Shown: piece by piece, positions 7,879 through 56,196 of the stretch
How positions within the stretch are numbered: the first letter of the stretch is position 1
Layout: every line of letters begins with the position of its first letter
Origin: a virus
IMG/VR virus record: IMGVR_UViG_3300048597_000624
Span: 1-64,000 of that record
Strand: one strand, 5' to 3'
DNA length: 64,000 bases
Notes under the pieces: generated by a model
Seen by the model: the letters and a program-made list of their open reading frames with translations, nothing else
Told to the model about the DNA's origin: nothing
Databases searched by the model: none
Program-made: the position numbers and the translations under genes

Positions 7879-7907
7879 TTACGTAAAAGTCGTCTCAGGC
7901 TAGTGGG

Positions 7908-9500: not shown

Positions 9501-9522
9501 CGGACTTCTCGTGACGTAGGAG

Positions 9523-17518: not shown

Positions 17519-17589
17519 GCGGGTGTAGCTTAGTGGTAAAGCGTCGGCTTCCCAAGCCGATGATGAGGGTTCGATTCCCTTCACCCGCT
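17519..17589 (+). tRNA. tRNA-Gly (anticodon CCC)
   Basis: A 71-nt cloverleaf. The acceptor stem GCGGGTG pairs with CACCCGC, the D arm is AGCTTAGTGGTAAAGC, the anticodon stem TCGGC/GCCGA encloses loop TTCCCAA (anticodon CCC), and the T arm is AGGG-TTCGATT-CCCT. CCA is not encoded. It is the probable integration target: an integrase gene ends 5 bases beyond it, and its anticodon arm is repeated at 18982-18999. Confidence 0.95.
17540..17557 (+). other. Attachment-site core within tRNA-Gly
   Basis: AGCGTCGGCTTCCCAAGC, covering the anticodon arm, is repeated exactly at 18982-18999. Tyrosine recombinases often cross over in the anticodon arm. The integrase between the copies supports an att pair; which element each belongs to is not settled within the window. 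Confidence 0.6.
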
Positions 17590-17594
17590 CTTCT

Positions 17595-18863
17595 TCACTC
17601 TTGAGACTTTGTCTTCTTGCGAAGCTCGACCTTTGCCGTCCGAAGTGCCGTGCGAACCCATTCGATGACTATGCGATTCTCCGGCGACACGGGCTTCATG
17701 TAGACATCTGCCATGTCGGAGCCAGCGGAGTGGCCCAGCCATCGTTTCATCGCTCCGATGGAACATCCGTCTCTTGAACCGTACTCGGTTGCTCCCAAAT
17801 GCCGTAGCGAGTAGAAGCCGCCGACGCCTTTGCACGGCTCGCCCAAGCGTTTGACGAGCTTCGACCACCATTGGTGAACTGAGTCCGCATGGGCGTGAAC
17901 GAGCGGCATCCCTTTAGCGGTAACGAACATCAATTCGCCATCGTCTCGCTTGCGATGCTTGAGATAATCTTGCACTGTCTTCCAAACGAGTGGCGGCGTG
18001 TCGCCATAACGCTCAATGCCGGTCTTGCCGCGACGTAGGTCGTAGCTCTTTTTGTCGATTTGTCCGACACGGACTGCGGCGAGGTCGCGTTGACCGAAGC
18101 CGCAGCCAATGGCCATCCATACCATCGCGGTTTCGCGAGGACTGCAATTGCTGAGAAGCAGCTTTAACTGAGCCAGCGACGGCAAGCGACGCTTCCGGGC
18201 AGGCTTGCCGTGATGCACGTCGCGTGAATCCCAATTCCACGCGAGCACTTGGCCACCGTGTTCGGGTCTTCCGGCACGGTCGATGATTGCCTTGACGAAC
18301 TGGAGTCTTTTCGTGACTTGCGAAGATGAGTAACCGGACTTAACGATGGCCCGATTGTAGGCTTCCACGTCGTCCATGCTGAAGTCGGCGAGCAACAAAC
18401 GTCCGGCTGCTCCCTGGCCGTGCCGCTTTGTGATGAATGCTAATATCTCCTTAGCGTATGCCTTCCGCTGGTCGAAGACGGCTCGGCAAATGCTGCCGCG
18501 TCGCCGGGGACCGGGCTCGTCGCGGACTCGCGATTCTTCAAACTGCAACAAGCCGGAGGCGACGTGCAGAAAACTTCCCGGCAAAATCTTGGCCGGAACA
18601 CCCTTGCTAACTGCCTTCAGTTCGACGTTCTGAAGGTCGAGTTTCTTGCGTCGCTTCGGCTTAGTAGTTGGCGTCTCGCCGCGAAGATGGGCAGCCACCC
18701 ATTCATGGTAGAGCTGGTCGGCCTGCTCGCGGCTGACCATACCAAAGCGATGCTTGCGAGGGTTTCCCGAGACTGGGTCACGAAACGAAACGTGCCAGCC
18801 GATGTCCCGGCTTTTGGTGAATTTCAGGGCGGGTATTCGCCGCTTGCGTGGGTTGCGAAGCAC
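17595..18863 (-). CDS. Tyrosine recombinase/integrase 1
   Basis: A 422-residue site-specific recombinase. The C-terminal catalytic region shows Arg I in GFGQRDLAAVRVGQI, Lys in RRGKTGIERYG, the box FYSLRHLGAT (Arg present, with Tyr where the first His is usual), WLGHSAGSDMADVYMK with the second His, and the nucleophile Tyr. The N-terminus is basic and should bind arm sites. Its 3' end abuts the tRNA-Gly, the usual layout for an element integrated there. It is unrelated in sequence to integrase 2. Confidence 0.9.
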   Translation of the reverse strand: MLRNPRKRRIPALKFTKSRDIGWHVSFRDPVSGNPRKHRFGMVSREQADQLYHEWVAAHLRGETPTTKPKRRKKLDLQNVELKAVSKGVPAKILPGSFLHVASGLLQFEESRVRDEPGPRRRGSICRAVFDQRKAYAKEILAFITKRHGQGAAGRLLLADFSMDDVEAYNRAIVKSGYSSSQVTKRLQFVKAIIDRAGRPEHGGQVLAWNWDSRDVHHGKPARKRRLPSLAQLKLLLSNCSPRETAMVWMAIGCGFGQRDLAAVRVGQIDKKSYDLRRGKTGIERYGDTPPLVWKTVQDYLKHRKRDDGELMFVTAKGMPLVHAHADSVHQWWSKLVKRLGEPCKGVGGFYSLRHLGATEYGSRDGCSIGAMKRWLGHSAGSDMADVYMKPVSPENRIVIEWVRTALRTAKVELRKKTKSQE

Positions 18864-18981: not shown

Positions 18982-19034
18982 AGCGTCGGCTTCCCAAGCT
19001 GGATGTCGCCGGTCCGAGTCCGGTCGCCCGCTCT
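18982..19034 (+). repeat. Partial tRNA-Gly copy (att site)
   Basis: The 18-bp core AGCGTCGGCTTCCCAAGC is followed by a diverged T-arm-like stretch (CCGGTCCGAGTCCGG) and GCCCGCTCTT, which matches the acceptor 3' end of the tRNA at 17519-17589 except for one base. The 5' half of a tRNA is missing. It therefore looks like a displaced tRNA 3' end at an integration junction, lying 92 bases before the second integrase. Confidence 0.65.
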
Positions 19035-19126
19035 TTTGCATCTTCTTTCGCACATTGCATTTATGAAACGGAATCGATCGCGAGACCTTGGCCATGGCGA
19101 CGGCGACTACGCGCTTAACTACGCGC

Positions 19127-20233
19127 ATGCCGAAGATCAATCTTCCGCGGTACCAAGGTCCACATAAGTCAGGTCAGGCGTATTGCCGCTGGCAAAAGAA
19201 GACGATCTACCTCGGAAAGTATGGATCCGACGAGAGCGTTGACGAGTTCAAGAAGCTTGTCGCGGCGATCGTAGGTGGCGATCCTGAACCGATTAAGCCT
19301 CGGTTTCCAACGCCGGAACATCCCGTTGTTGACTTGGCGGAACCCTACCTGGACTTCGCCGAGTCCTATTACAGCCAGAACGAATACGACTGCATTCGGT
19401 ACGCGGTAGATCTCCTGCTTGAATTGCACGGCTCGACCGAGCTCGACCAATTTGGCCCCCTGGCGCTCAAGCAGGTCAGAGAGGCCATGATCGCGAAGGA
19501 TTGGTCACGGCCGTACACCAACCACCAAATCGCCCGGCTCAAGCGGATGTGGCGATTCGGGGTCGAGAACGAAATTGTGCCGGCCTCTCTGGCCCACGCC
19601 ATCGAGAGCGTCAAGGCACTCCGCAAGGGACGCACGGAAGCCCGCGAGACGGAACCGGTTGAGCCAGTGGCAGACGAAATCGTGGCAGCCACCCTGCCCT
19701 TCATGTCGGCCACGATCGCAATGATGGTTCGCACTCAGCGGATCGCTGGAATGCGGCCAGGCGAAGTCTGCTCCATGCAAATGCGGGATCTCGAGGGTCG
19801 CGGGGATACTTGGCTCTATCGGCCGGGGCAGCACAAGAACACTTGGCGCCGCAAGCCTCGGGTGATTGCCATTCCGGCGTCCCTGCACGGGCCGCTCTGG
19901 GAGTACCTCAAGCCTGAGCCAGAGGATTACGTCTTCACGCCCAAGCCCCGCGGCTGTGTCAAACGGCCCTGCTACACCGAAGACACTTACCGGGTGGCTG
20001 TAGCCCGTGCTGCCAAAAAGGCGATTGAGGCTGGGGCAAAGGCTGTGCATTGGTCGCCAGGTCAACTCCGGCACAGCGCTGCAGACGAAGCGGTTCGCAT
20101 CCTGGGCCCAGTAGCGGCCCAACGGCTACTCGGCCACGCCAACCTGGATACGACTTCCATCTATCTGAGCCAGATGGTTGACGACCTGGTGCACGTGACC
20201 GAGCAACTGGACGCGCGCCGCAGGTCAGAATGA
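19127..20233 (+). CDS. Tyrosine recombinase/integrase 2 (planctomycete type)
   Basis: A 368-residue integrase. The N-terminus MPKINLPRYQGPHKSGQA with IYLGKYGSDES resembles a set of integrases common in planctomycetes, and this decides the start at 19127 over an upstream ATG at 19088. The catalytic domain includes RIAGMRPGEVCSMQ (Arg I), WSPGQLRHSAADE (Arg II), LLGHANLDTTSIYLS (His and nucleophile Tyr). It faces into the prophage region and lies beside the partial tRNA, so it is the likely integrase of the prophage. Confidence 0.9.
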   Translation: MPKINLPRYQGPHKSGQAYCRWQKKTIYLGKYGSDESVDEFKKLVAAIVGGDPEPIKPRFPTPEHPVVDLAEPYLDFAESYYSQNEYDCIRYAVDLLLELHGSTELDQFGPLALKQVREAMIAKDWSRPYTNHQIARLKRMWRFGVENEIVPASLAHAIESVKALRKGRTEARETEPVEPVADEIVAATLPFMSATIAMMVRTQRIAGMRPGEVCSMQMRDLEGRGDTWLYRPGQHKNTWRRKPRVIAIPASLHGPLWEYLKPEPEDYVFTPKPRGCVKRPCYTEDTYRVAVARAAKKAIEAGAKAVHWSPGQLRHSAADEAVRILGPVAAQRLLGHANLDTTSIYLSQMVDDLVHVTEQLDARRRSE

Positions 20234-23272: not shown

Positions 23273-24112
23273 TTATTGCATCGGGACAGCGCTCGACTCC
23301 AAGAGCGCCGCCGTATTGTTCAAAAAGTTCGACCACGTCTCAGGAGACCCGAGAACCCCAGCCATTTGCGCGGGCGTTGCCACCTCCTTAAGCCGCACAA
23401 AGAACGACGACCATCGCGCAAATGGTTTCGGACCAATGGCGATTTCGCATGCCCTTTCGAGTTCGATAAACGGATCGGCTTCGAGCGGGACTTGTCCGCT
23501 GGCAATGAGGTTCGCGAGTTCTCGAAACGATCCGGCCAAGGCCTGACCCTCCCCGCCCTTGTTGGAGCTTTGCACTTCAGCGATCGACTTGAGTAAGAAC
23601 TCATCGACGTTGAACTGCTGTGGTGGGCCAACGAAATCTTGAGCGGTGACGTCGGGCTTGGGTGCTTCGACAATGACAAATTCCCACACGTGCTGCGCTA
23701 CCAAACCGCCGTTGCCCGCGACACTCACGTGCAGTTGATAAATCCCCGGCTGGCCAGCAAAGTTCGCGACTCGCCCGTCCGGCGAAACGTCAAGCCCATT
23801 GACCTGCGGCAGTACGCTCCAGGCGAAGCTCGTTACCGTACCGGTAGTTTCAGCAATGAAGTAAAGCTTGTTGCCAACAATGCCATCTGCCGGGCCTTTT
23901 AGGCGAACAGACAGTGGCGACTGCGATTCATTGACCACCCGCACGATCTGACTTTGCTCTGGCACGTGCAAGGTAGGCGGAGAGACGGGCAGCGGCTCAA
24001 CCTCAACAGCCACTGCGGAGCGAGGCATATCATCAACTGATTGACCGTCTAACGAGCCAGCGCCAAGCAGGACGGCTGCTGCTAAGGCTGAAATGGTTTG
24101 ATGCATGGTCAT
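23273..24112 (-). CDS. Secreted Ig/PKD-like domain protein
   Basis: A 279-residue protein with an N-terminal hydrophobic segment (ISALAAAVLLGAGSL) followed by a beta-rich region with PKD-like text (SFAWSVLPQVNGLDVSPDG, GIYQLHVSVAG) around residues 95-150, and a helical C-terminal half. The ATG overlaps the cytochrome peroxidase stop by 4 bases, so the two are co-translated. Function unknown; an extracellular binding role is inferred. Confidence 0.7.
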   Translation of the reverse strand: MTMHQTISALAAAVLLGAGSLDGQSVDDMPRSAVAVEVEPLPVSPPTLHVPEQSQIVRVVNESQSPLSVRLKGPADGIVGNKLYFIAETTGTVTSFAWSVLPQVNGLDVSPDGRVANFAGQPGIYQLHVSVAGNGGLVAQHVWEFVIVEAPKPDVTAQDFVGPPQQFNVDEFLLKSIAEVQSSNKGGEGQALAGSFRELANLIASGQVPLEADPFIELERACEIAIGPKPFARWSSFFVRLKEVATPAQMAGVLGSPETWSNFLNNTAALLESSAVPMQ

Positions 24113-25113
24113 CGTGGCAATCCCGGAGCCGTGATGCGTGGGTAAGTTGGTGAGGACAATCCTTCACGAAGGAAGGCTTCAAGCTGGGCCTGTTCCTCAT
24201 CATCCAGGCCGAGCAGTCCAATGCGGGGATCTTGGTTTCGATCGACGCGCCCCCCGATCGACCATCCCGCGTTGTATCCATCAATTACTGCTGCCAGATC
24301 GAGAATCGTTCCCGCGTGCATGTAAGGAGGTGTTCGGCTAATTTCGCGTAGTGTCGGTGTTTTTGCCGCTCGAATGTCTGCTGCCGTTGCTTGGCCTCGG
24401 AGAAATCCGCCGCGAAGGCGATCGCCGGTGTTCGAGAAGAATGCAATGCCCGTGTTGTGAAATTTGCCGTCGGTCATAAGCGGGTAGGTGTGGCACTCAT
24501 TGCACTTGAGCGTGATGCCAGCACGGTTGGGACGCAGGCCCATGAACAGCTGGAAGCCTGCCTCCGCCTGGGAGCTTAAGGCTCGCGTGTAGCCTGCCAT
24601 GCGTTTGTCGACCGGGGCGTCGAACGAGAGTACCGAGTTTTCAAAGCTGGCGATGGCATGACCAAGACGGGCGGCATTGCACGGCTGGCCATAGGCCGCC
24701 AGGAACAAAGATCGATAGCCGCGGATCGAGTTGACCCGGTTCACCACCTGCTGCACTGAGCCGTTGGCCATTTCGACGGGATTGACCAAGGGGCCAAGAG
24801 ATTGCTGCGCGTGGCCGAGCGTGTTTCCGTCCCAGAATTGATTGGGAAGGTAGGTCGCTCCGATCACTGTGGGGGCATTGCGGGTGCCGCGCAGGCCGCG
24901 TACGCCGATGGATACGCTCTGCGGTTCCGCAAAGCCATGGTCCGCGCGATGGCAGGTGGCGCAACTAACCGTGCCGTCGATTGAGAGGCGCGGGTCGTAA
25001 AACAGCTTGCGCCCCAATTCCACGCGCTCGGGGGTGACGGCGACGTTCAGCGGGGCGCCGGGCGTTGGCGGCTGAGCGAGAGCCAGTGCCAGGAATGCGG
25101 CGAAGAAATTCAT
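24109..25113 (-). CDS. Di-haem cytochrome c peroxidase (CcpA/MauG family)
   Basis: A 334-residue protein with a short signal peptide (MNFFAAFLALALA). The first haem motif is VSCATCHRADHGF near residue 50 and the second is LKCNECHTYP near residue 202. The family signature ELGRKLFYDPRLS and NAPTVIGATYLPNQFWDG are also present, with a Met in the TPPYMHAGTI region as possible distal ligand. Members reduce peroxide or oxidise protein substrates in the periplasm. It is clearly coupled to its neighbours (4-base overlaps on both sides). A haem enzyme inside a phage late region is surprising; it may instead be a host gene cluster absorbed at the prophage end. Confidence 0.92.
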   Translation of the reverse strand: MNFFAAFLALALAQPPTPGAPLNVAVTPERVELGRKLFYDPRLSIDGTVSCATCHRADHGFAEPQSVSIGVRGLRGTRNAPTVIGATYLPNQFWDGNTLGHAQQSLGPLVNPVEMANGSVQQVVNRVNSIRGYRSLFLAAYGQPCNAARLGHAIASFENSVLSFDAPVDKRMAGYTRALSSQAEAGFQLFMGLRPNRAGITLKCNECHTYPLMTDGKFHNTGIAFFSNTGDRLRGGFLRGQATAADIRAAKTPTLREISRTPPYMHAGTILDLAAVIDGYNAGWSIGGRVDRNQDPRIGLLGLDDEEQAQLEAFLREGLSSPTYPRITAPGLPR

Positions 25114-25874
25114 GCGGATGGCTCCGGATCGTCGCGACGCAAGACCTTCCAGTCGCGAGACTCATCCAAAACCCCCTGCACAATTGGCAGCAGCGAGCTG
25201 CCAGGCCGGGACATTGATATCAGTAGGTTGAGGATTCTGCCTTTTAACTCGTCGTCTTGAATCCAACGACCGGTGGTGTCTCGCGGCATCGGCACCGCTC
25301 GCGGCACTACTGCCGGACCTTCGTCATCCGGCGCGGGCGGTAAGTTGCCCCCCTCTTCCGCGTCGCAGATGAACAAATGCGGAAACGCACTGTAGAGCAC
25401 AAACACCATCACACCAGGCTTGAGCCGCCGCAGGTCGCTGCAGAACTGATCCACGTCCTCAATCGCGTCGTGCTCGAATGAATATCGAAGCTCTTCAATC
25501 TCCACGTCTGTCACTTGACCAACAAACCGTTGATTGGCATCGCTAAAGATCGCGCGATACCAGACCACCACGCGGCCGCATTCACTGGTTCCGATGCGAA
25601 GCTCCGCTTCTGGCTGCACTCGGCCGCGATGCTCATCGACAACGACGGTTGACTCTTCTTGTAACCAAGCCAACAGACGTTCCGCTGGCGACAGGATCTC
25701 ACGTTGTTGCGGCGTATAGGTGCTCTCATCCGTCGCGACAGGCTGAGCAGCGCGGCCGGCAATTGCCGGAGAGGTCGAGAGATCCCAAGCGGCGACAGTC
25801 AGACTCACGACCAATAACGTTAGACCAACGCCCACTTTCCACCTGCTGCTTAAAAACTCGGGCACGATTTTCAC
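25110..25874 (-). CDS. Membrane-anchored hypothetical protein
   Basis: A 254-residue protein read from GTG at 25874, with GGAGT six bases ahead. The frame upstream of this point overlaps the protease and is not used. One N-terminal TM (VGVGLTLLVVSLTVAAW) anchors a soluble domain containing RVVVWYRAIFSDANQRFVGQ and VMVFVLYSAFPHLFICDAEEG. The family is unknown to me. It overlaps the cytochrome peroxidase start by 4 bases, so it belongs to the same exported set. Confidence 0.65.
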   Translation of the reverse strand: MKIVPEFLSSRWKVGVGLTLLVVSLTVAAWDLSTSPAIAGRAAQPVATDESTYTPQQREILSPAERLLAWLQEESTVVVDEHRGRVQPEAELRIGTSECGRVVVWYRAIFSDANQRFVGQVTDVEIEELRYSFEHDAIEDVDQFCSDLRRLKPGVMVFVLYSAFPHLFICDAEEGGNLPPAPDDEGPAVVPRAVPMPRDTTGRWIQDDELKGRILNLLISMSRPGSSLLPIVQGVLDESRDWKVLRRDDPEPSA

Positions 25875-25903
25875 TGCTTCACTCCTTTGTGAGTCATCAA
25901 CAA

Positions 25904-26986
25904 TCAAAAATTGAAAGCCAGGTCGAACTGCCCGGCCGGCGAGTAAATCTTGATGGGCCCCAATTCCAGCAGCAGCGCGACGTCGCCAGGGTCCGCGGCG
26001 CCACCGTCCGGAGCTTCCGGCGGAACAACCGAAGCCAGTAGCTTGTCGACCTTGAGCAATCCGCGGCCAACCGCGCGACCGTCGTTGGGGTCGACAATGT
26101 CGATCGCCCCGTCGTCCAGGTGCTTGCGGAGCTCGTCCATCGTCCGCAGCGGAGTGATTCCCCCGCCGAGCCGCTTGTGTCGATCGAGCAGCAGCGCGGT
26201 GCAGCCGGCGACCATCGGGCAAGCCATGCTCGTCCCGCTGATCGTTGCATGCCCGCCATTGAGCCAGAGCGATGTGACGTTCGTGCCTGGGCCGGCGATG
26301 TCGACTTCCGGTCCGCGCGACGAGTAAGGCGCGGGCTGTCCGTCCTCGCCATAGGCCGCGACCGCGATCGTGTCGAGATTCGGGTGTCCCACAGGCTGGT
26401 GGTAGCGTGCCGGGAAGTTCACGTCGTAATCCCGGCCGGTATTTCCCGCCGCGCAGATGACGAAGACTCCTCGCGAGACGGCATATTCGATGGCTGCCGC
26501 AATCTCCGGATCTGGGTATGGAGAACCAAAGCTTGCGCTAATGACGTGAGCGCCTTGCGCCACCGCCCAATAAATGGCCGCAGCGATCCAGCGATTCTGT
26601 CCGGTCCCTCGATGGAGCACCTTGCCGATCAACAATTCGCACTCGGGAGCGAACCCGATAATTGGGCCTTTGTCTTGTCGAGCCCCAACGATGCCCGCGC
26701 AGTGCGTGCCGTGGCCGTCCTGATGATCGTCCCAGAACTCGTCGGAATCGCCATAGGGCGTGAAGTTGCGGCCCGCAAGGATCGCATCAAACAGATCCCC
26801 TTCGTTCGCGTGGATTCGATCAACCCCCGTGTCGAGCACCGCGACCCGGATGCCTGCCCCGGTCGCTCGCGCGAGCGCATCCGGTAAGCCGGCCTGCCCC
26901 CAGTCCAAGCGGTCCTTGAGCTCATTGGCCAAGAACACCGTTTGGACTTCGTACGGCGGCAGGTGGCTTTCGCGGCGATTCGACAT
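25904..26986 (-). CDS. Subtilisin-family serine protease (S8)
   Basis: A 360-residue protease with the full catalytic triad: Asp in VAVLDTGVDRIH, His in DGHGTHCAGIVG, and Ser in ISGTSMACPMVAG. The oxyanion Asn is in FVICAAGNTGRDYD. There is no signal peptide; a short N-terminal stretch with YEVQTVFLANELKD precedes the catalytic core. Within a prophage it could mature virion proteins, act on the host surface from the particle, or be a passenger. It is in line with the membrane/cytochrome genes that follow. Confidence 0.93.
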   Translation of the reverse strand: MSNRRESHLPPYEVQTVFLANELKDRLDWGQAGLPDALARATGAGIRVAVLDTGVDRIHANEGDLFDAILAGRNFTPYGDSDEFWDDHQDGHGTHCAGIVGARQDKGPIIGFAPECELLIGKVLHRGTGQNRWIAAAIYWAVAQGAHVISASFGSPYPDPEIAAAIEYAVSRGVFVICAAGNTGRDYDVNFPARYHQPVGHPNLDTIAVAAYGEDGQPAPYSSRGPEVDIAGPGTNVTSLWLNGGHATISGTSMACPMVAGCTALLLDRHKRLGGGITPLRTMDELRKHLDDGAIDIVDPNDGRAVGRGLLKVDKLLASVVPPEAPDGGAADPGDVALLLELGPIKIYSPAGQFDLAFNF

Positions 26987-27040: not shown

Positions 27041-27445
27041 TTAGGCCGTGGCGGGCGGGGCGGGGAGCGCACCGCGAATCGCAGCGATCAACTGCATCAC
27101 GAGCTTGATGATTGCAATGATCCCTGCGAGGTCGCTTGCCGAAGACTCACCGGCGAAAGCTTCGTCGATGCAGGCATATTGCTCATCGAGACTCAGCGGA
27201 ACGGCATCGGACGCGACCGAGAAGTCCAGGGAAATTCCGAACAGCGCGAGAAGTTCCTTGACGAGAGCGCCGATCTTTTGCACGTTCTCGGAGTTGATGA
27301 GTTCCAGCAATTTGCGGAGTCGCGAGCCGTCGGCACTGCGCAATAACTCGGCAAGTCTGCGAGCCAGTTCGATCAATCGAACTCGGTCGCCGACGGCGGC
27401 AGCGTAGGCCATCAAATTGAGCAGCGCGGCAGATTGAGCCGTCAT
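27041..27445 (-). CDS. Small helical hypothetical protein
   Basis: A 134-residue, almost entirely helical protein with amphipathic Leu/Arg repeats and a hydrophobic C-terminus (AGIIAIIKLVMQLIAAIRGA) that could enter a membrane. No family recognised. It lies 54 bases before the protease gene and just after the tRNA. Confidence 0.6.
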   Translation of the reverse strand: MTAQSAALLNLMAYAAAVGDRVRLIELARRLAELLRSADGSRLRKLLELINSENVQKIGALVKELLALFGISLDFSVASDAVPLSLDEQYACIDEAFAGESSASDLAGIIAIIKLVMQLIAAIRGALPAPPATA

Positions 27446-27493
27446 AGAAGCACCCTTTGCAAGGAGTGAAAGAAAGAATCCCGGTCCCGGAAG

Positions 27494-27569
27494 TAGCAGG
27501 GGCTGGATTCGAACCAGCGATCTCAGGGTTATGGGCCCTACGAGGACGGCCAGACTCCTCTACCCTGCA
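27494..27569 (-). tRNA. tRNA-Met (CAT), initiator-like
   Basis: A cloverleaf on the minus strand with anticodon loop CCCATAA. Three features match bacterial initiators: the anticodon stem has three consecutive G-C pairs next to the loop (GGG/CCC), the D stem has A11-U24 (GAGG/CCTC), and the first acceptor position is unpaired (U1/U72). The T arm is GCTGG-TTCGAAT-CCAGC. CCA is not encoded. It sits between phage genes, so it is phage-borne. Confidence 0.88.
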
Positions 27570-27616: not shown

Positions 27617-27859
27617 TCAAGCGCTGGTCGTGCTAGCGTCTTGAGCGGAAATAAAATCGGAGAGCTGCCGCACCAGGTGAGCCGGAATGCGGTCGAAATG
27701 CCGCTTCACGCCATCCGCGATCGCGTCAGCATCAGGACGATCTTGACACTCTGGGCAACGCCGAGCGCGGACGTCGAACCCCTGCATCGGTACTTTCTCT
27801 CCGCAGCCGGTGCAAATCCAACGATGCTCGCGGTGCTTTTTCCCTGCACGCTCAGCCAT
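27617..27859 (-). CDS. Small zinc-ribbon protein
   Basis: An 80-residue protein with two CxxC knuckles (WICTGCGEKV and RRCPECQDR) and a helical tail. The ATG at 27859 overlaps the upstream stop as TGATG, which decides the start over 27874. Function unknown; nucleic-acid binding is plausible. Confidence 0.7.
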   Translation of the reverse strand: MAERAGKKHREHRWICTGCGEKVPMQGFDVRARRCPECQDRPDADAIADGVKRHFDRIPAHLVRQLSDFISAQDASTTSA

Positions 27860-29295
27860 CAGTCTCGAACCCATTCCCCGGTGCCATCCGCATGGGTCAC
27901 GCGCGATACGCGAAAGCTACCGCAATCCACGGTGGTCACCAAGGGCCAACCATGAACCTGCCTCGCTGGCACGAGCGGTTCGCCAACAATTCCTTCACAA
28001 GTGTCGTCCACTTCCTGCAGTAACTTGGACAATGTGTCGAGCGTCGACGGTCGCGGTACTCCCTTGTCGACCGACAGTACGGGCGAATGGGAACCGCAGA
28101 GCAGAATCGCATGCCGCGCGTGCTCGCAGCCCTCGTCCGTCCAACTCCACTGATTGAGCGCCGCCGAGTCTTGGAACCAAGCTTTGCAGCCGCCCAGACG
28201 CAAACCCTTGCCGCGGCGACGATCAACCGCCACCGCGCCCCGCATGCACTCCAAATCGGCTGGCGTGTAAATCTTGACCGAACTGTACCCGCCCAGCGTG
28301 GCGCCCGTGCCGAAGGATTGCTTCATTCGCGTGATGCGGTACAAGTCACCCGCTTGCATCCAGGCGTTGGCGGATCCGCCGACGGCGCCGGGAAACGCTT
28401 CGACCATGGCTTGATGCAAAAGCGACTGGCACTCCTGGATGACCCGCTCTTTCATCACGTGATTCCACCGCCAGTAGCGAGGATCAGCGTCGTTCCACCG
28501 CATGACGGTCGCCAGGTCGGACTTGTCGAGTTGCATCCGCTCCTGAATCGGCAGCCAGCGCGGATCATCGAACACCACTTGCTGGATCCACTCCGATCCC
28601 TTCTGCCGGCACTCGTGAAGATTCCAAGCCTTAAACTCCCAGTCGATGTCGAACACCGTGGGGTAGGGGGTCCAGCGGGCGAGCTTGTTCAGCCGCGATC
28701 GCCAGCGAATGGGCATTTCTGAGAGCCAGCGCGGGTTGGGCCAGACGCCAAACTCGGGGGCAGCCATCGGCAGGTCCGCCGCAATGTGGAGGGAGCCGGT
28801 TGCGAGTTGATAGGCCCGGGCCTCAAGCGGTCGTCCTGCGAACAAATCAGCCGTTTCCTCCGGAGTGAGTCGTTTTAACCAGCCCGCGCGAGCGTTGCCG
28901 ATCGAGGTTTCATCCCAGCCCAGGTTGATCGCCTGGACGAGATTGGGGTATTCGCCTTCCTTCACGGCACCATGGACGTGGCAAAGGCGGCGGCGCGCGA
29001 CCGGCGCTGGACCATCGGCCCGCAACAGTCGATCGAGGATCGATCCGGGCAGACGCGCGACCATCATGTTCGCACTGTCGAGCACCTTATCGTAAATCTG
29101 GTCGGCCGAAACGTCCTTGCCGAAGACGTCGCGGTCGGCGAGCAATTGCAGGAATCCCGCCGCGCGAAGGTTGTCCGGCCAGGTGAACGACTCAGGGACG
29201 CCCAGCCCGCGGCGAAGGTCGGCCGGCGAGAGCAGGGATAGCAGGTGGTCGAAAATGTGGCCGAGACTAATGGATGAAGCGGCGGAGGTGGTCAT
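27859..29295 (-). CDS. Large hypothetical virion-associated protein
   Basis: A 478-residue protein without a family I recognise. It is Trp-rich (for example FDIDWEFKAWNLHECRQKGSEW), starts with a helical region and ends with a beta-rich part. It is translated with the downstream zinc-ribbon gene and follows the methyltransferase by 18 bases. Position near the end of the virion genes suggests a structural or assembly role. Confidence 0.6.
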   Translation of the reverse strand: MTTSAASSISLGHIFDHLLSLLSPADLRRGLGVPESFTWPDNLRAAGFLQLLADRDVFGKDVSADQIYDKVLDSANMMVARLPGSILDRLLRADGPAPVARRRLCHVHGAVKEGEYPNLVQAINLGWDETSIGNARAGWLKRLTPEETADLFAGRPLEARAYQLATGSLHIAADLPMAAPEFGVWPNPRWLSEMPIRWRSRLNKLARWTPYPTVFDIDWEFKAWNLHECRQKGSEWIQQVVFDDPRWLPIQERMQLDKSDLATVMRWNDADPRYWRWNHVMKERVIQECQSLLHQAMVEAFPGAVGGSANAWMQAGDLYRITRMKQSFGTGATLGGYSSVKIYTPADLECMRGAVAVDRRRGKGLRLGGCKAWFQDSAALNQWSWTDEGCEHARHAILLCGSHSPVLSVDKGVPRPSTLDTLSKLLQEVDDTCEGIVGEPLVPARQVHGWPLVTTVDCGSFRVSRVTHADGTGEWVRD

Positions 29296-34445: not shown

Positions 34446-36059
34446 TTACGAAATCAAACTGTCCGGAATCGTGATCCCGACGCCACTCGTAGTGGGCAGC
34501 AGCAGTCCCTTGGCTTTCAAATCGAAGTTTCTGTCCATCCATTCGTGGAACTCGCCCGCGCGGTCGTTCGTGACGGCCAGGCCATACCGGTCGCCAATCG
34601 CCCAAGCGATGTTGCCTTCGAACGCCGCGACACTCGGGCCGCCGCTGTAAATCTGCGTCATGGCCACCAGCGAGAAATCGTCCGCGAATACGCTGCTGGT
34701 ATTGCTCACCGCGGTTGAGATTCGGTAGCGCAGATAAACCTGCGGAGGCAGCACGCGCGGGGTGCGGAACGCCACGTTCTTTGCGGCATAGCTGGTCGTC
34801 AGCCCGGTCGCGGAAATCGTCAGCGTGTTGGCCGTCCCCTCGTCGTCGTTGATGACGGCGCCGCCATCCCAGAGCGAGACTTGCAGCACGCCAGCCGCCG
34901 GGACCGAATCGACCTTGAATTGTCCGTTGAACGCATACTGCGTTTGCGGTGAGAGCGACAACGGTACAAGGATCTCGGTCAGTTCCGATCCGTTGGAATC
35001 GAACTCCAACGCCTTTCCGTCGCCATAAACGTGCGTCGAACCGGCAGTCGTGGTGTTGTGAGCTATCGACGGGCTGCCGCCGGTCAAGTAGCTCGTGCTG
35101 GTCAACTGAGTGACGTTGCCGCCCACGCCGTTGAACGTGATCGTGTGCGTGTAGTTCGGCGATGTGCCGGTTGCCGCCACGGTTACGAGCTCGAGTCCCT
35201 TCAGAGCCCGCAACCGCGACTGGACGGTCGAAGCAGGAGCGTTGTACGCGATGAGAGCGGTCGTCTGGACCTGGCTCGCGGCGTTGGTGTAGCTCAGCGT
35301 GTAATAGCCGTCGGTTGGGGTGCCGCTGATCGCGACCGTTTGCACTTCCACGTCCGTAAGCTTGATCGTGGTGCCGATCGTCCCGAGTACCTTGATCCAG
35401 TCGTCGGGGAAGTTGGCTTGGTCGTCTTCGTCCTCGAACCCGCCGTTCGTGATGAGTCCCCCGCCGGTTGTGACTGTGACCGTTGCTGACTTGCCCGATC
35501 CCGCCGGCCAGGATTCGGACAGCAAGTTGCGAGCCGCCACGGGGGCCTTGAGCCGGAACGACGTCGCGGCGGTCGCTTCGATTTGGATCGTCTCCGCCAG
35601 CATCAGTTCGTTGACCAGTCCATCCGCGCGCTTGGTGCTGACGACGAACGTGCCGTTGCCTGCGGGGGAGCCCACGGCCGAGACGGAGGCACCGACGGCG
35701 TTCTCTTCGACGGCCTCGGTATCGGCGATCATCTGCCGAATAATCTCGCGCAGAACGGACGCGATGTCGTAAGCCGGCAACGCGACGTCATCCTTGACCA
35801 TCTGGATGCAGGTGTTTTCGATCGCGGTTTTCAGCGCGGACTGGAGCGTGTCGGTGTTCGTTTTGAAGTTGTTCAGCGCTGGGGGCAGGCCCGCGACGGC
35901 CGCTTCAAGCTCGGGGCTGACCGCGGCGAACTCGTCGAGGGCGTCCTCAACCTCGGCCGGAACGGTCGTCCCCCGGGCGGTGTTCAGGACTTCCTGGGCG
36001 TAGAAAAGTTTGCCCAATCGGACGGGAAGGCTGCCGCTGCCGGACCAAGAGAGAGCCAT
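34446..36059 (-). CDS. Virion protein with carbohydrate-binding-module-like region
   Basis: A 537-residue protein starting MALSWSGSGSLPVRLGKLFY. Residues 1-130 are helical. The middle and C-terminal parts are beta-rich and Thr-rich, with LITNGGFEDEDD followed by a Trp, a start like that of CBM4/9-type jelly rolls. It is probably a fibre or surface decoration. The start at 36059 is chosen because the upstream frame runs into conserved leader A, which ends 30 bases before it. Confidence 0.65.
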   Translation of the reverse strand: MALSWSGSGSLPVRLGKLFYAQEVLNTARGTTVPAEVEDALDEFAAVSPELEAAVAGLPPALNNFKTNTDTLQSALKTAIENTCIQMVKDDVALPAYDIASVLREIIRQMIADTEAVEENAVGASVSAVGSPAGNGTFVVSTKRADGLVNELMLAETIQIEATAATSFRLKAPVAARNLLSESWPAGSGKSATVTVTTGGGLITNGGFEDEDDQANFPDDWIKVLGTIGTTIKLTDVEVQTVAISGTPTDGYYTLSYTNAASQVQTTALIAYNAPASTVQSRLRALKGLELVTVAATGTSPNYTHTITFNGVGGNVTQLTSTSYLTGGSPSIAHNTTTAGSTHVYGDGKALEFDSNGSELTEILVPLSLSPQTQYAFNGQFKVDSVPAAGVLQVSLWDGGAVINDDEGTANTLTISATGLTTSYAAKNVAFRTPRVLPPQVYLRYRISTAVSNTSSVFADDFSLVAMTQIYSGGPSVAAFEGNIAWAIGDRYGLAVTNDRAGEFHEWMDRNFDLKAKGLLLPTTSGVGITIPDSLIS

Positions 36060-36089
36060 AGGGAAAGCCTGTTTCGCCGTGTGCCAACG

Positions 36090-36150
36090 AAAAAAGCCCG
36101 CCAGCAAGCCGATATTGGCTCGAAGGCGGGCCCGGTTGTTCCGACACCCA
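36090..36150 (-). promoter_or_regulatory. Conserved phage leader, copy A
   Basis: On the minus strand a conserved block (complement of CCGGTTGTTCCGACACCCA at 36132-36150) holds a small UCGG-loop-CCGG hairpin. It is followed by the GC stem GCCCGCC/GGCGGGC with an inner AGCC/GGCT stem, and a run of six U. It lies 30 bases before the start at 36059. The identical block recurs in copies B and C. Confidence 0.8.
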
Positions 36151-36267
36151 TGTTGAGTTGTGCGGGGTATTCTAGCGATCCCTGGCGGCCAGTGCCAAGG
36201 TTCTTGCTGACTTTCGGATTTGCCCAAATTAAATTAAACGCTGGATTCAGGCCCGGGAGCCCATGAA

Positions 36268-45568: not shown

Positions 45569-45748
45569 TTAGGATGTTTTGCGGTTCTTCCGCTTCACTG
45601 TGCTCGCGTTGACCTTGGCTGCCTGCGCCTTGGAAGCCTTGGACTTGCGGCGGTACGTCTCTTTCTCGCTGGGCTTGGTCATTACCGCATCGCCCATGAA
45701 GCCTGGTCCACGGATCGGCGTATCGAAGATCTCAGGTAGATCGGCCAT
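45569..45748 (-). CDS. Small Lys/Ala-rich basic protein
   Basis: A 59-residue protein (MADLPEIFDTPIRGPGFMGD, then a strongly basic tail rich in Lys, Ser and Ala). The ATG shares a base with the stop of the portal fusion (TGATG), so translation is coupled. It may bind DNA or act as a small head component. Confidence 0.65.
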   Translation of the reverse strand: MADLPEIFDTPIRGPGFMGDAVMTKPSEKETYRRKSKASKAQAAKVNASTVKRKNRKTS

Positions 45749-48700
45749 CAGACCAGCCCTTTATCGCGCCAATACTGGAAGCACTTGGGGTAGTTCGCTT
45801 CGGCCTTTTCTCGATCGAGAAAAAGTAGCCGTCCAAACTCTGCCCAGCCTTCTTGGGCGTCGGTTTTAGCATACTTCGACAAGGGAGTGCTGGGCAAGTT
45901 AATCTCTTCCTGCCAATTTTTCTTCCACTCAGGCGTGTAATCGAAGTCGTGGCCGCCGATGGCATGAGCCAATTCGTGGGCATGCGTGCCGGCCGCGGTG
46001 ATGTCCGAACCGGGATCTGCAGTTCCGACGCGCTCCCCTGTGTCTTCGCCTCCGTCCAGGCAAAGCGTTCCGTTGAGATCCTCATGCGTCGGCTTGCCTG
46101 TCGAACGGTAAATCGGGTAGGCAAAGAATCCCATCACGGTTGCTCCGCGCGGGATACGCGAACCGCGGCGGCGGGCCTCGGCTGTGACGCCGCTAACGCT
46201 CGGCTTCCACTGGACGCTGGAAACGAACCGGTCGACACGTCGCAAGCACTCGCCATTCATGCCGTCGATCGCGCGCGAGATTGCCGCCCGGTAGGCTTGC
46301 TGCTTGTCCTTGGAGAGCCGCTTAAGCTGCTCCGGCATGTCTTTGAGAAGCTTGGCGCGAACCGACTCGCGCGCGGCGTGTAATTCGCTTTCCGCAGAAT
46401 CGTCGGCGGTGGATTCCTTCGCGGCAGCCGCCGGCGTCGAACTCGATTCGCTGCTGCTGCTACCGCTGCCGGCGCTCTCCTTCTCGACGAACTTCCCTTC
46501 ATCGTCGCGCGGATGCTTGGACTCGAAATCAAGGCCCTTTTGCGTCCCGCTGTTGGCCTGCGGATCGTCGTCGAACAGTCGCGTTTGACGAGCATACTTC
46601 CGCAAGAATCGGCGCGTGCGGGCAAACGGCACCGACTCGATTGCGTCATCCCGCGCCGGAACATACTTGCCGGCCTGATGAGCCAGATCGACCGCTTCCG
46701 ATAAAACTTCGTTCGACCAGCGCGCGGGCGGCTCGATTCGGCCTTCGCCGAGCATGTCCCACACTCGTTCGCCGAGATCTTCGGAGTATCCTTCCGCGTG
46801 GTTACCCAGGCCGAGTTCCGGCAGCGAGGCGGCAACCGACGTCGCCTTGACGTCGAACCCAGGAATTGCCGTGTAGTCCTTGCCGGCGTTCGACAGCCGC
46901 GCGAAGTCGTTGCGGGTGAGCCCCATGATCTCGCGCAACTGCATCTTGGCGTGCTCGCGGTCCGTGATGGCTTGCCGCTTCTCTTCCCAGACGAAGTCGA
47001 CAGCATCGCGCAGAGTAGCGGCATCGAGGTTGTGCTCTTCGGCCAATGCGGAGATTGCTTGGCCCAATCGGCCTTCGGACGTTCGCTTGGGCTTGGGCTG
47101 TTTTGCCGGTTGCTGCTGCGACTGGGGCTGAGACTTGGGCTCACCACCTGGTGGCAGTCCGGCGGCCGACTCGAGTTCGCGGACCGACGCCTCTTGCTTG
47201 GGCAGCAGTTCGTCCGGTGGGTTCTGTCCGGCTTGTCGCCATGCGCGGCGAATCGCCTCTTTCGACTGCTCCAGTTCCGCTCGCGCGCGACGGGCGGCGT
47301 CGGCCTTGGCGGGATCTGGCTGCGTTGGTGCATCGATTTCGGTTTCAACAGGGGATTCCATCTGCTCGCCCGTCTCGGGCTGCTCCTGCGGCGTCGGCTC
47401 CTCATCGCCAACCATGTCGATGTCATCCCAGGCGTCGGGATAGCCTTCGTGGTCGTCGTCCTCCCGGTGCGGAGTGGCATGACCCGGGGCGTCCACAATG
47501 CCGACGCGATGCCCGCGGTTGACCAGCGTATTGAGGTGGCCCTCTAAATCCGCCTGCTTGATGACCGCATGCTTCCCGTTGCCCAATTCGAGGTGCTCAT
47601 TGAGTCGAGCGGCGCCAGCACCGAAGGCGTGATAGTCACCGTTTTCGTTGACCAGCAAAATCGTTCCCGCGGGGGCCATCTCGAGGGCGCGATCGTGGGC
47701 CTCCCGCAACACGCTGTCGCGATGATCTTCGTGGGCGTCTTGCTTGCGGGCTCGCCGTGCGCGAGATTCGTCCGATTCGTCGCGCAGGTCGTCAACGTCT
47801 TCGCCCTCCAGGCCCGGGCAGCCGGCGTGAATGTGGCCATCTTCGCCGACGAGGGCAGGGGCGCCGCCGACGGTTTTCCACTGGGCACCCTTGGGCTCTG
47901 GATCGGGCTCAGCGCGGTAGACGCGGCGACCTTCTTTGTTTCGACGATGTTTGAGCTTTTCGGGCAAATCTTCGGCAAGCTTCTCGATTTGCTGTCGGAG
48001 ATCGGGTGGTGTTGTCGCGTCGTCGAGCTTGGCAAGGCTATCGAGGCTTAGCCACCAGTGATAGTCGTGCTCCTTGGGGTTGGTGTCGACGTTTGACGAC
48101 GAACCGGCGGCCACTTGCGCCCGATACATGACCCCAGATTTGCCGTTGCGAGTTTCAAACGGAACCTCCCCTGGAAGAAACTCGATCGATAACCCCGTTT
48201 CCTCTTCCACTTCGCGCGCGGCGGCCTTGCGCGGATCCTCGCCGTCACGACGATGGCCGGCAGGGCACTCCCATTCGCCCGTGCGGGTGCTGGCTTCCGA
48301 TCGGCGGACCAGCAAAACCTTGCCGTCGTGGATGATGGCTGTGGCGACGATGTCCGGATCGTCATCCTCCACGATGATCGACTCGGCATCGTCACGCTTG
48401 GCATACTGCCGCGGCGTCGCTCCACCTGCGGGCCCGTACATGCGAAGCTGCAATCCGCCATCGGCGGCGGCTGCCTTCTGCTTGTCGCCTTCAGGCCCAT
48501 CGTCATCCGGTTTATCCGGATCATCATCGGGGTCGTCGTCCACCTCGGGTCCGTCTTCGCCCGGTCCCTCATCATCGTCGCCGCCGGCCAGTGGATTCTG
48601 CGGAAACGCCACGGTCGAGCGAGAGCCAGGCAGGTTGTCGCCCGGCTGGCCCGGCTGCCCCGGTTGTTGGCCCGGCATGCCCGGCAATCCCAGCCCCATT

Positions 48701-50202
48701 CCGGCGCCCTGCGAGAACGTGGGGTTCTGTAGCGCCTCTTCGCCGTCGGTCGGGATCGACGAACCAATCATGCCCGCGACTTCAGCCGGCTTGAGCTTCA
48801 ACCCCATCTCCCAAGCCATCTGGTACGCCTGGAGCTTCTTCTCCACCTCGGGCGATTCGGTGTCGATTACGAATCGCACATAGACCCGCTGCGAGCCGGG
48901 GAAGTTGAACAGCTTGAGCGGCTCGACAAAGTCCGTCGTTAGCGACTCTTCGAGGTTCGTCGCGTCATAGCGAATTATTTGATTAAACGTTTCGAGGTGC
49001 AGATCCGCCACGCCACTGCCCAGGCCGGTCGCTTCGGACTCACTCGACAGGATTTGGCCCAGGATGTATCGCTTGATCTGGTGGCCAAACAGGTCATGCA
49101 CGATCGACTTGAGCGACTCGACGCCGGCCGCGTTGGGCTCGATGCGATCGATTCCGTACTGCGATTTCTCTTCGCCCTCGGGGATCGGCACCAGAATGTT
49201 ATTGTTCTGGTGGGACTCCATTGCCGCCGCTTCGGCCTTTTCTTTCCCCTCGGGGTTCCCCAGCGGGTAGTACCAGATTGTGAAGCCTTGTCCCACGCGC
49301 TCGAGATATTCGACCAGCATCGCGAGGGCTTCTTGTTTCTGATACCACGCCCAGTAGATGCGCGAGCGCACGCCGACGCCATGAATCGCACCGGCGTCAA
49401 TTGGCGATTCGTAGGCCGCGTCTTCAACCATGTGCTTGTGCAGCACGATCGCGCGACGTTCCCAATCCTCCAGGAAATACCCCATGCCCTGATCGGTCGC
49501 GACCACCTTGTGCGGTCCGACCAGGTCGCCGGGCTTGAAGTTTCCCGCCACGCGGATGCCGATTTGGTCTGGATCCCAGCCCTCTTCGTTCACTCCGGGG
49601 ATATCTTGGCGAAAGAGCAGCTTGTCGCCGTTGATCGGGCGCCACTTGCGAACGATCAGCCGTTGCTGGCCGTGGACGTAGTCCCAGTTGAACAGGTTGT
49701 TGATCGCGGATCGTCCGAACCAAACCGCTTCCTGCAGCGAGCGGCGATACTCCACGAACCGCGAGGTCCGGCGAATGATCGCGGTGAGGTCGTCGACGAG
49801 CTTCTTTTGCAGCGGGGAATTCTCGTCTTCCGCCTCGAGGTGCCAATTGAGCAGCGCCACGCAACGCTGGCGAGCCTCCAGGCACTCCATCACCGTGCAA
49901 TCGTTGCGCATGTACCGCGCGTTGTCTTTCGAGTGGCGGTAGGCTTCGTCCGGATTGCGGTAGACCTTGGCGAGGTTGGAAATCAAACCCTGGAACGTCA
50001 TCACGTGCGGCATCACCGGCATGCCGAAGCCGGGAGGGGCTCCCTTGATGCCGCGCGCAGGATCGTGCGACTTCACGTTGGGCGGGCTGGCCTGGCCGTT
50101 TGCGTGGCCATTGGTGGACGGCTTGGGCGGGCGCGGCGTGCGGGCAACCAGCGGGCGGGCGTTGTCGGGCAGGTTGCCGCGAGAGGGGAGGGGAGCGGCC
50201 AT
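45748..50202 (-). CDS. Portal protein fused to Nudix, MutS-I-like and zinc-metallopeptidase domains
   Basis: A 1484-residue polyvalent protein. Residues 1 to about 520 read as a DUF935-type portal protein (YRRSLQEAVWFGRSAINNLF; HQIKRYILGQILSSESEATG). An acidic linker follows (about 534-567). A Nudix domain near 615-740 has a complete box (G-x5-E-x7-REVEEETGL, about 650-673). Around 837-897, ILLVNENGDYHAFGAGAAR and LNTLVNRGHRVGIVDA resemble the MutS N-terminal domain. The C-terminus has a zincin site HELAHAIGGHDFDY near 1412, with a later Glu in EGWAEFGRLLF. Single-frame continuity with no stops argues for a real fusion. Ejected effector domains on the portal are one reading; self-processing by the peptidase is another. 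Confidence 0.88.
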   Translation of the reverse strand: MAAPLPSRGNLPDNARPLVARTPRPPKPSTNGHANGQASPPNVKSHDPARGIKGAPPGFGMPVMPHVMTFQGLISNLAKVYRNPDEAYRHSKDNARYMRNDCTVMECLEARQRCVALLNWHLEAEDENSPLQKKLVDDLTAIIRRTSRFVEYRRSLQEAVWFGRSAINNLFNWDYVHGQQRLIVRKWRPINGDKLLFRQDIPGVNEEGWDPDQIGIRVAGNFKPGDLVGPHKVVATDQGMGYFLEDWERRAIVLHKHMVEDAAYESPIDAGAIHGVGVRSRIYWAWYQKQEALAMLVEYLERVGQGFTIWYYPLGNPEGKEKAEAAAMESHQNNNILVPIPEGEEKSQYGIDRIEPNAAGVESLKSIVHDLFGHQIKRYILGQILSSESEATGLGSGVADLHLETFNQIIRYDATNLEESLTTDFVEPLKLFNFPGSQRVYVRFVIDTESPEVEKKLQAYQMAWEMGLKLKPAEVAGMIGSSIPTDGEEALQNPTFSQGAGMGLGLPGMPGQQPGQPGQPGDNLPGSRSTVAFPQNPLAGGDDDEGPGEDGPEVDDDPDDDPDKPDDDGPEGDKQKAAAADGGLQLRMYGPAGGATPRQYAKRDDAESIIVEDDDPDIVATAIIHDGKVLLVRRSEASTRTGEWECPAGHRRDGEDPRKAAAREVEEETGLSIEFLPGEVPFETRNGKSGVMYRAQVAAGSSSNVDTNPKEHDYHWWLSLDSLAKLDDATTPPDLRQQIEKLAEDLPEKLKHRRNKEGRRVYRAEPDPEPKGAQWKTVGGAPALVGEDGHIHAGCPGLEGEDVDDLRDESDESRARRARKQDAHEDHRDSVLREAHDRALEMAPAGTILLVNENGDYHAFGAGAARLNEHLELGNGKHAVIKQADLEGHLNTLVNRGHRVGIVDAPGHATPHREDDDHEGYPDAWDDIDMVGDEEPTPQEQPETGEQMESPVETEIDAPTQPDPAKADAARRARAELEQSKEAIRRAWRQAGQNPPDELLPKQEASVRELESAAGLPPGGEPKSQPQSQQQPAKQPKPKRTSEGRLGQAISALAEEHNLDAATLRDAVDFVWEEKRQAITDREHAKMQLREIMGLTRNDFARLSNAGKDYTAIPGFDVKATSVAASLPELGLGNHAEGYSEDLGERVWDMLGEGRIEPPARWSNEVLSEAVDLAHQAGKYVPARDDAIESVPFARTRRFLRKYARQTRLFDDDPQANSGTQKGLDFESKHPRDDEGKFVEKESAGSGSSSSESSSTPAAAAKESTADDSAESELHAARESVRAKLLKDMPEQLKRLSKDKQQAYRAAISRAIDGMNGECLRRVDRFVSSVQWKPSVSGVTAEARRRGSRIPRGATVMGFFAYPIYRSTGKPTHEDLNGTLCLDGGEDTGERVGTADPGSDITAAGTHAHELAHAIGGHDFDYTPEWKKNWQEEINLPSTPLSKYAKTDAQEGWAEFGRLLFLDREKAEANYPKCFQYWRDKGLV

Positions 50203-54404: not shown

Positions 54405-54709
54405 TGCTGTTGCACCACGGTCCCAAACAAAACTTGCGCCGCCTGAACCGTCACTTTGCCGAGATGGATGATTTCCGACTCGCCGTCCCTCACGGTCGGA
54501 AACGACGAGTGCTCGAATGCGATCAAGAAATCGTCCGTCTCTTTGCTGAATCCTATCCAGCGGGGAATTGCGCCCTTAGGGACCGGTGATTGGAGTACCA
54601 CGCCGCCGTTGGTACCCAGCAATGCCATCAGGTCGATGCGTGAGATTGCGATGGATGCGACTCTCGGGCCTTCTTCGGGATGAAAGATCTCGCCGTTCAC
54701 GTGGTTCAT
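54401..54709 (-). CDS. Hypothetical protein
   Basis: A 102-residue protein overlapping the terminase stop by 4 bases. Beta-rich, no motif recognised. It may belong to the head-packaging set because it directly follows the large terminase. Confidence 0.6.
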   Translation of the reverse strand: MNHVNGEIFHPEEGPRVASIAISRIDLMALLGTNGGVVLQSPVPKGAIPRWIGFSKETDDFLIAFEHSSFPTVRDGESEIIHLGKVTVQAAQVLFGTVVQQQ

Positions 54710-56196
54710 CGCGAATGCCTCTTGAACTGCAATTGCTTCCGCTGGGGAAGCGGCGCCTTCTTCGCAACTGGCACTTCTCCGCCTACTCGCTGCCGATCAC
54801 TATGCAATCCATATCGCAGCGCGTCAACGCAGTCATCGTTGCGCTTGAGCGGAGTGGGGGCCGCGACCTGCGGATTTATGCCGCGCCCGTTCGACCGACG
54901 CCAGCGGTAAGTTCGCATTTCCTTGGCCAGGTGCGGGCAGTTGCCGCGGTGGATCAGCAGCCGCGGCCGGTTGGTCATCGAATTGAGTTTCAGCATCGAC
55001 CGGACTGTCTCGATCCCCTTGTACACGTTGTTGTTCGCCGGCGAGACCGGGATCCCGTGGGCGGCAAAAAGGTTGATTAGGTCTGGCCGAGACGGATCCG
55101 CATAGGTCGAACCGTAGCGGGCGTTGTTCGTCGGCCAGGGGTGCCGATCCTTGATCTCGGCAATGTGGTCCAGCGCGGTCAGGTGCTGCGAGTTGTTCCA
55201 GTATTCGTCGTAGACGTGGTAGTCGCCCAGCCCATCGCGGAATAGCCACAGCGTTACGAACGGGTGTTCCGCCGACGCGCCCCAGTCGATCGAGCGGAAA
55301 TGCCAGGCACCGGGCGGGATCTCGATGTCGTCGACGAGGTGGATGCGGGGGTTGAAAGTCTGGTAGATCGAGCCTTCGTAGCTGGCAAATGCTCCCGTCT
55401 TGCGGGTTTCCAGCATTTCATCGGAGACCGACGCGAAGAACGTGTCGTACCATTCGTCCGACAGGTTCCCGCGATTCCGCTCGGTGTTGAGGCGGAAGAA
55501 CGACCAACCCTCGGGCGGATCGTCGAAAATCTCTTCAATCGGAGCCGACAACTCCGGATCGATCGGCGTAAACTCGCCCCACACGCCACCGGGGTACATG
55601 CAATCTCGGCAGCCGCGCAGCACTTCGAGGAAGATCTCGAACGGGAACTGCTCTGAGAACCAAGCGCCGCCGATCGAACTAGCCTGCATCTTGTCGCGGC
55701 CCTGCTCGTAGCTCTTGAACTCGACGATCCAGTTCTTGCCCGGGCGCCCGTGCCATGGCTTGAGCGGAACGGCGTAAGGCCAGCCGCGATTGACTCGGTA
55801 CCACTGCACGCGCTTCCAGTCGATCACGTCCTTGGGCAGGTAGCGCGAGAGCTTTTCAAACCAGCACACGCCGCAGGACTGATCGTAGGTGTTGGAGATC
55901 ACCCAGAACGGCGTATCGCGGCGTGGCGGAGGCTGGTCGAAGAGCAAGAACTTCGCGCACTTGTAGGCGCCGGCTTCGGTCTTGCCCGAGGCGTTGCCGC
56001 CGATCGCCATGGAGACGACCGACTTGGAATGTACGAACCCTTCCTGCTCGTCGTAATCGGCCGGGTTGTCGGGCCGCGGCTGGAAGGTGTACAGCGCTTG
56101 CTGGTGGAAGCGGTTGAATTCGCCGATTAGGTCATCGTCGCCGCTCGAAAGAACGACGTCCCAATCGTCGGCAGTGAAGGGTGAGGCGATGGGCAT
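54706..56196 (-). CDS. Terminase large subunit
   Basis: A 496-residue packaging motor. Walker A is SMAIGGNASGKTEAG near residue 66, and the Walker B region is IGGAWFSEQFPFEI near 175. The C-terminal RNase H-like nuclease shows the first Asp in FRSIDWGAS near 300 and later acidic residues in NDDCVDALRYGL. It cuts and translocates concatemeric DNA into the prohead together with the small subunit at 57559. It overlaps the next upstream gene by 1 base. Confidence 0.95.
   Translation of the reverse strand: MPIASPFTADDWDVVLSSGDDDLIGEFNRFHQQALYTFQPRPDNPADYDEQEGFVHSKSVVSMAIGGNASGKTEAGAYKCAKFLLFDQPPPRRDTPFWVISNTYDQSCGVCWFEKLSRYLPKDVIDWKRVQWYRVNRGWPYAVPLKPWHGRPGKNWIVEFKSYEQGRDKMQASSIGGAWFSEQFPFEIFLEVLRGCRDCMYPGGVWGEFTPIDPELSAPIEEIFDDPPEGWSFFRLNTERNRGNLSDEWYDTFFASVSDEMLETRKTGAFASYEGSIYQTFNPRIHLVDDIEIPPGAWHFRSIDWGASAEHPFVTLWLFRDGLGDYHVYDEYWNNSQHLTALDHIAEIKDRHPWPTNNARYGSTYADPSRPDLINLFAAHGIPVSPANNNVYKGIETVRSMLKLNSMTNRPRLLIHRGNCPHLAKEMRTYRWRRSNGRGINPQVAAPTPLKRNDDCVDALRYGLHSDRQRVGGEVPVAKKAPLPQRKQLQFKRHSR

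Follow-up and report, generated by a model that had tools for sequence, protein, structure and literature searches.

The 64,000-nucleotide window examined in this study, the whole stretch of DNA analysed, is part of an 85,224-base IMG/VR provirus record and contains a tRNA-Met(CAU) gene on the minus strand (27494..27569) whose sequence identifies it, with a probability of roughly 93%, as an initiator-type tRNA. Phage-borne initiator tRNAs are an already known kind, to which the present gene adds one member; its sequence places it in a subset that has drawn little attention and whose anticodon loop is altered, with C at position 33. The gene is probably an accessory phage initiator tRNA that would sustain initiation when the host initiator is limiting or cleaved.

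ARAGORN identified a tRNA-Met(CAU) at 27493-27569 on the minus strand, and the Rfam tRNA family (RF00005) matched 27494-27569 on the same strand with 47 bits (E 6.6e-07; gathering score 29). The location given in an earlier note on this DNA was thus borne out, and the strand, which that note did not mention, can be added to it. The gene comprises 76 nt to A73 (TGCAGGGTAGAGGAGTCTGGCCGTCCTCGTAGGGCCCATAACCCTGAGATCGCTGGTTCGAATCCAGCCCCTGCTA) and can be segmented from 5' to 3' as TGCAGGG TA GAGG AGTCTGGCCGT CCTC G TAGGG CCCATAA CCCTG AGATC GCTGG TTCGAAT CCAGC CCCTGCT A. Since the bases directly 3' of A73 are CTT, the CCA end is not encoded. A short stem-loop with a T-rich tail, a possible terminator or processing signal, lies directly 3' of the tRNA (27479..27492, minus strand); it is not above chance, with one such structure found against a shuffle mean of 1.5. 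The tRNA-Met gene is present in one copy in the record, where the sole other tRNA is a tRNA-Gly(CCC) at 17519-17590. The minimum-energy fold of the tRNA-Met is not the cloverleaf, and the same is true of the tRNA-Met of Pseudomonas phage D3 and of one chromosomal initiator; RNA folding by itself is uninformative for this gene.

The acceptor stem is paired throughout except for U1xU72, includes G2-C71 and C3-G70, and is followed by A73. The D-stem consists of G10-C25, A11-U24, G12-C23 and G13-C22, and all pairs of the T-stem are formed. The anticodon arm (UAGGG-CCCAUAA-CCCUG; 27524..27540, minus strand) contains U27.G43, A28-U42 and then three G-C pairs (G29-G30-G31/C39-C40-C41) around the CAU anticodon. 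All three hallmarks on which the earlier note had based its initiator assignment (GGG/CCC anticodon-stem pairs, A11-U24 and an unpaired position 1-72, here U.U) are therefore present, and the gene combines the full set expected of a bacterial initiator, namely a CAU anticodon in a cloverleaf, a 1-72 mismatch with G2-C71 and C3-G70, A11-U24, and G-C pairs at 29-31/39-41. The mismatch at 1-72 together with G2-C71 and C3-G70 is the feature recognized by the formyltransferase, and such determinants are the classical ones for formylation and P-site entry, as in E. coli tRNAfMet. Identity to initiator references ranges from 74% to 84%; the gene is 74% identical to the E. coli initiator and 54-55% identical to the E. 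coli elongator Met and Ile2 tRNAs, the E. coli initiator reference having been confirmed by exact database matches. The initiator classification stands on these intact determinants and on the difference between the identities. Annotation tools report tRNA-Met without separating initiator from elongator, leaving room for an elongator tRNA-Met or tRNA-Ile2 that merely resembles an initiator; this is highly improbable, as A11-U24, the 1x72 mismatch and the three G-C pairs occur together, where an elongator Met or Ile2 would show a paired 1-72, Y11-R24 and no run of three G-C pairs, and as the identity to the E. coli elongators is the lower one. Both alternatives that the earlier note had set against an initiator are excluded by the determinants and the reference comparison.

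The oddest base of the tRNA is the C at position 33, which, like the U27.G43 pair, was overlooked in the earlier note. The usual initiator anticodon loop is CUCAUAA, with a U33 that is customary and not defining; the loop found here is CCCAUAA. U33 is near-universal in tRNAs, and the vertebrate cytoplasmic initiator is the best-known natural exception. To assess how frequent C33 is, scans were run for an initiator anticodon arm in which any base was allowed at position 33. In IMG/VR, such a scan returned 120 loci, comprising 108 new loci with U33, three loci with A33 that were not tRNAs, and nine loci already in the C33 set (the nine were obtained by subtraction, and five of them were listed). 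In this unbiased viral sample, C33 was found in 9 of 117 initiator sites and U33 in 108. The approximately 90 Pseudomonadota genomes with a match yielded no genuine tRNA with C33, and among 122 Planctomycetota genomes one had C33 and 121 had U33, which amounts to 1 of about 212 genomes in the two bacterial phyla sampled. A Fisher test of 9/117 viral sites against 1/212 genomes gave P ~5e-4, a value that is indicative only, the samples not being host-matched and the viral sample including some host flanks.

A scan specific to C33 recovered 69 viral tRNAs that fold well and have a purine 11-pyrimidine 24 pair, at least 56 of them distinct. C33 is also the chromosomal initiator form in Weissella and other Leuconostocaceae, Erysipelotrichaceae, several Patescibacteria, some Phycisphaerae and many archaea (the chromosomal loci include L238, L241, L270, L302, L308 and L326). 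C33 as a purely viral trait is ruled out by these chromosomal occurrences; because they exist, C33 does not bar the present gene from the initiator class. Five further phage initiator-like tRNAs (L357, L358, L359, L362 and L363) carry other changes of the anticodon arm, including the loops UUCAUAU and CUCAUUA and interrupted G-C runs; in phages the arm seems to vary readily. The open-access literature, as far as it was covered, yielded no description of phage initiators with C33, and an exact search of viral contigs for near-identical tRNA genes returned none.

Among annotated phage genes, the closest is the tRNA-Met of Pseudomonas phage D3 (AF165214, 53398-53473), which, with its counterparts in D3 relatives, is 84-85% identical to the present gene. 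Both genes have the initiator determinants, a U72 mismatch, A11-U24, three G-C pairs and C33, and both are carried by temperate tailed phages. They differ in that the D3 gene has C1xU72 and an encoded CCA, whereas the present gene has U1xU72 and no CCA; in addition, D3 carries a set of four tRNAs (Met, Gly, Asn and Thr), whereas no tRNA gene is adjacent to the present one. The 5' half of P. aeruginosa tRNA-fMet1 is CGCGGGGTGGAGCAGTCTGGTAGCTCGTCGGGCTC, with U33 (PMC11380944); phage D3 and its host therefore differ at position 33. Janthinobacterium phage vB_JliS-Donnerlittchen has a single tRNA, a tRNA-Met whose initiator anticodon arm also contains C33; it is about 80% identical, has another acceptor end and encodes CCA. 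Sinorhizobium meliloti prophages of the phiLM21-like group are published examples of temperate phages whose one tRNA gene is annotated as tRNA-fMet (PMC12429752). The view in the earlier note that phage tRNAs are usually elongators therefore needs qualification, as initiators are less exceptional than it implied and occur in many viral contigs and in named phages.

The tRNA-Met gene lies in a 171-base gap between minus-strand open reading frames (ORFs) of a late gene run. This run includes a terminase large subunit (54706..56196), for which 41 uncultured viral relatives share 39-57% identity, and a 1484-aa portal protein fused to a NUDIX domain (45748..50202), which has viral relatives and gave no match to annotated phage records; the NUDIX hydrolase domain spans residues ~611-729. 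A major tail protein-like gene upstream of the tRNA (34446..36227) has a weak match and a homologue in locus L403 (42% over 430 aa). The immediate neighbors, also on the minus strand, are an 85-aa ORF just upstream (27617..27874), with a weak zinc-ribbon match (PF14319) below the cut-off, and a 134-aa ORF downstream (27041..27445) with no family. Besides the terminase, the 41 tailed-phage loci related by it (L391-L431) share the portal and, at 42116-43165, a conserved gene that may encode a capsid protein. None of the 41 contains the tRNA-Met, and only L403 and L422 extend to the corresponding region and its homologous tail genes; both have a different gene order and no tRNA, consistent with the tRNA-Met being an accessory gene. 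Cargo-like genes for a subtilase, a di-haem cytochrome c peroxidase and a methyltransferase are found close to it. The best explanation of this context is a temperate tailed phage in which the tRNA-Met is an accessory gene of the minus-strand late region.

Several other features of the record were observed. The peroxidase (CCP_MauG) and the subtilase, which are unusual phage cargo, occupy 24109-26986 between the integrases and the tRNA. A defence island at 4429-16861 adjoins the attachment site and encodes Lamassu LmuB and LmuC, a HAD hydrolase with a transmembrane domain, a DprA/PsyrA-like protein, a full-length type IIG restriction-methyltransferase (1360 bits) and an SNF2-PLD helicase. A stand-alone topoisomerase III-like protein (Pfam Topoisom_bac) is encoded at 735-2810, with a second match to the PADLOC DpdF model that covers the N-terminal half of the model.

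There is about an even chance, judging from its determinants and genomic setting, that the tRNA-Met functions as a supplementary initiator during infection. The transcript would be trimmed by host RNases and completed by the host CCA-adding enzyme, and it would then be charged by MetRS and formylated by the formyltransferase before entering the P site of the ribosome to initiate the synthesis of phage proteins. The benefit would be a protected or extra supply of initiator in lytic growth when that of the host is limiting, and would be greatest when the host cuts its initiator by means of VapC-type anticodon nucleases specific for tRNAfMet. The suggestion in the earlier note that the gene could replace a cleaved host tRNA is plausible, with a published precedent in other phage tRNAs (PMC10264068). 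Several findings support the supplementary role: the 1x72 mismatch, G2-C71, C3-G70, A11-U24, the three G-C pairs, A73 and CAU are intact despite divergence elsewhere; the terminase, portal and tail genes share the strand of the tRNA, with structural genes that have viral relatives; and C33 initiators recur in other phages, D3 and Donnerlittchen included. The lack of a tRNA-Met near the terminase in the 41 related viral loci counts against it, although most of these loci end short of the corresponding place.

The C33 itself may reflect nuclease evasion, tolerated drift or host origin. It could be an escape from an initiator-cutting nuclease, or a change that is tolerated since initiators never decode in the A site. 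VapC enzymes cut tRNAfMet within the anticodon arm (PMC8522696), and phage tRNAs with anticodon-loop changes have been predicted to be nuclease-insensitive (PMC10264068). That nuclease-insensitive class (van den Berg et al. 2023) calls for an anticodon-loop change relative to the host tRNA, and C33 is a change relative to most bacteria. However, phages tend to avoid tRNA-fMet where it is targeted by VapC-LT2 (PMC10264068), and no data on position 33 were found. It is possible but unlikely that C33 serves nuclease escape, and the broader proposal that phages recurrently carry C33 initiators, the present gene included, as a class under selection to evade initiator-cutting nucleases of the host is similarly speculative.

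Alternatively, the tRNA may have been taken from a host, such as a Phycisphaerae-like planctomycete, whose chromosomal initiator already had C33, U72 and no CCA, in which case it would raise the initiator dosage in lytic growth and C33 would be non-defensive; this can be entertained only tentatively. Several chromosomal initiators of Phycisphaerae/Planctomycetota (e.g. L302 and L326) have C33, C1 or U1 opposite U72, A73, no CCA and the TTCGAAT T-loop, and are 83% identical to the present gene; they are host genes, and differ in a D-stem of GAGC/GCTC, in contrast to GAGG/CCTC here, and in another acceptor stem. In addition, a genome from the same class as Phycisphaerales genome G004 contains a tRNA-Gly with 96% identity to the tRNA-Gly(CCC) of the record, a match that leans towards a planctomycete host. 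Genome G004 has C33, and with the nearest tRNA-Gly relative in its class, C33 could simply be inherited from the host lineage. However, this class has both C33 and U33 initiators, and the 121 of 122 sampled planctomycete genomes with U33 include some of the same class. The gene is no more distant from D3 (84% identity) than from the Phycisphaerae initiators (83%), and the sequence therefore indicates no single source; D3, moreover, has its C33 within a U33 host. The 35 kb around the 96% tRNA-Gly match have nothing else in common with the record, scans with the terminase and neighboring proteins found nothing close for a host, and matches in Planctomycetota reach 40% at most for the integrase and 31-36% over half of the protein for the terminase.

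It is also conceivable, if doubtful, that the gene is carried as a passenger, decaying or under relaxed constraint, with initiators tolerating C33 by bypassing A-site decoding and the phage copy drifting without a selected role. Because initiators go straight to the P site, they should have no need of U33 for decoding in the A site, and relaxed constraint is for this reason a serious competing explanation; C33 has also arisen repeatedly in chromosomes, viruses and archaea. The U27.G43 pair, the divergent D-stem pairs and the lack of CCA would fit such drift, as would the failure of the cloverleaf to be the minimum-energy fold, although this last feature is shared with D3 and a chromosomal initiator. 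Yet drift would not preserve the determinants and helices, and here all initiator determinants are intact and the other helices all paired, which counts against a passenger.

The phage tRNA could in principle substitute for a host initiator gene disrupted by integration, a tRNA-dependent lysogeny for which there is precedent in actinobacteriophages (PMC10865867) and which the two integrases of this temperate phage would allow. The attachment site, however, is the tRNA-Gly(CCC), whose intact copy adjoins one integrase (17595-18863, minus strand); a displaced and diverged tRNA-Gly 3' half (18982-19033), which has 18 exact bases in common with the intact gene, lies ahead of the second integrase (19088-20233, plus strand). 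This arrangement is most readily explained by tandem integration at tRNA-Gly in which the gene was rebuilt, whereas tRNA-dependent lysogeny calls for a phage tRNA of the attB isotype and a gene that is not rebuilt. No repeat of the tRNA-Met longer than 12 bases occurs elsewhere in the 85-kb record, and, with no att-like repeat, such lysogeny does not explain the tRNA-Met and is very improbable. It is scarcely credible that the tRNA shifts start choice towards phage GTG starts, an impression of the earlier note, which had cited many GTG starts and weak ribosome sites: a crude rule, indicative only because it favors starts with Shine-Dalgarno (SD) motifs, gave 38 ATG, 11 GTG and 10 TTG starts and an SD-like motif ahead of 39 of the 59 long ORFs, compared with 10% in the background, and the start codons recognized through a CAU anticodon would be those of the host initiator, with no specificity added.

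The finding of an accessory phage initiator is modest, as phage-borne initiators are not new. Protein synthesis nevertheless has a single point of failure in the initiator tRNA, which VapC-type toxins target, and recurrent C33 phage initiators, including that of D3 with its U33 host, offer a simple testable system for distinguishing nuclease escape from added dosage. If nuclease escape is true, C33 phage initiators would keep initiation alive in cells that are shutting translation down.
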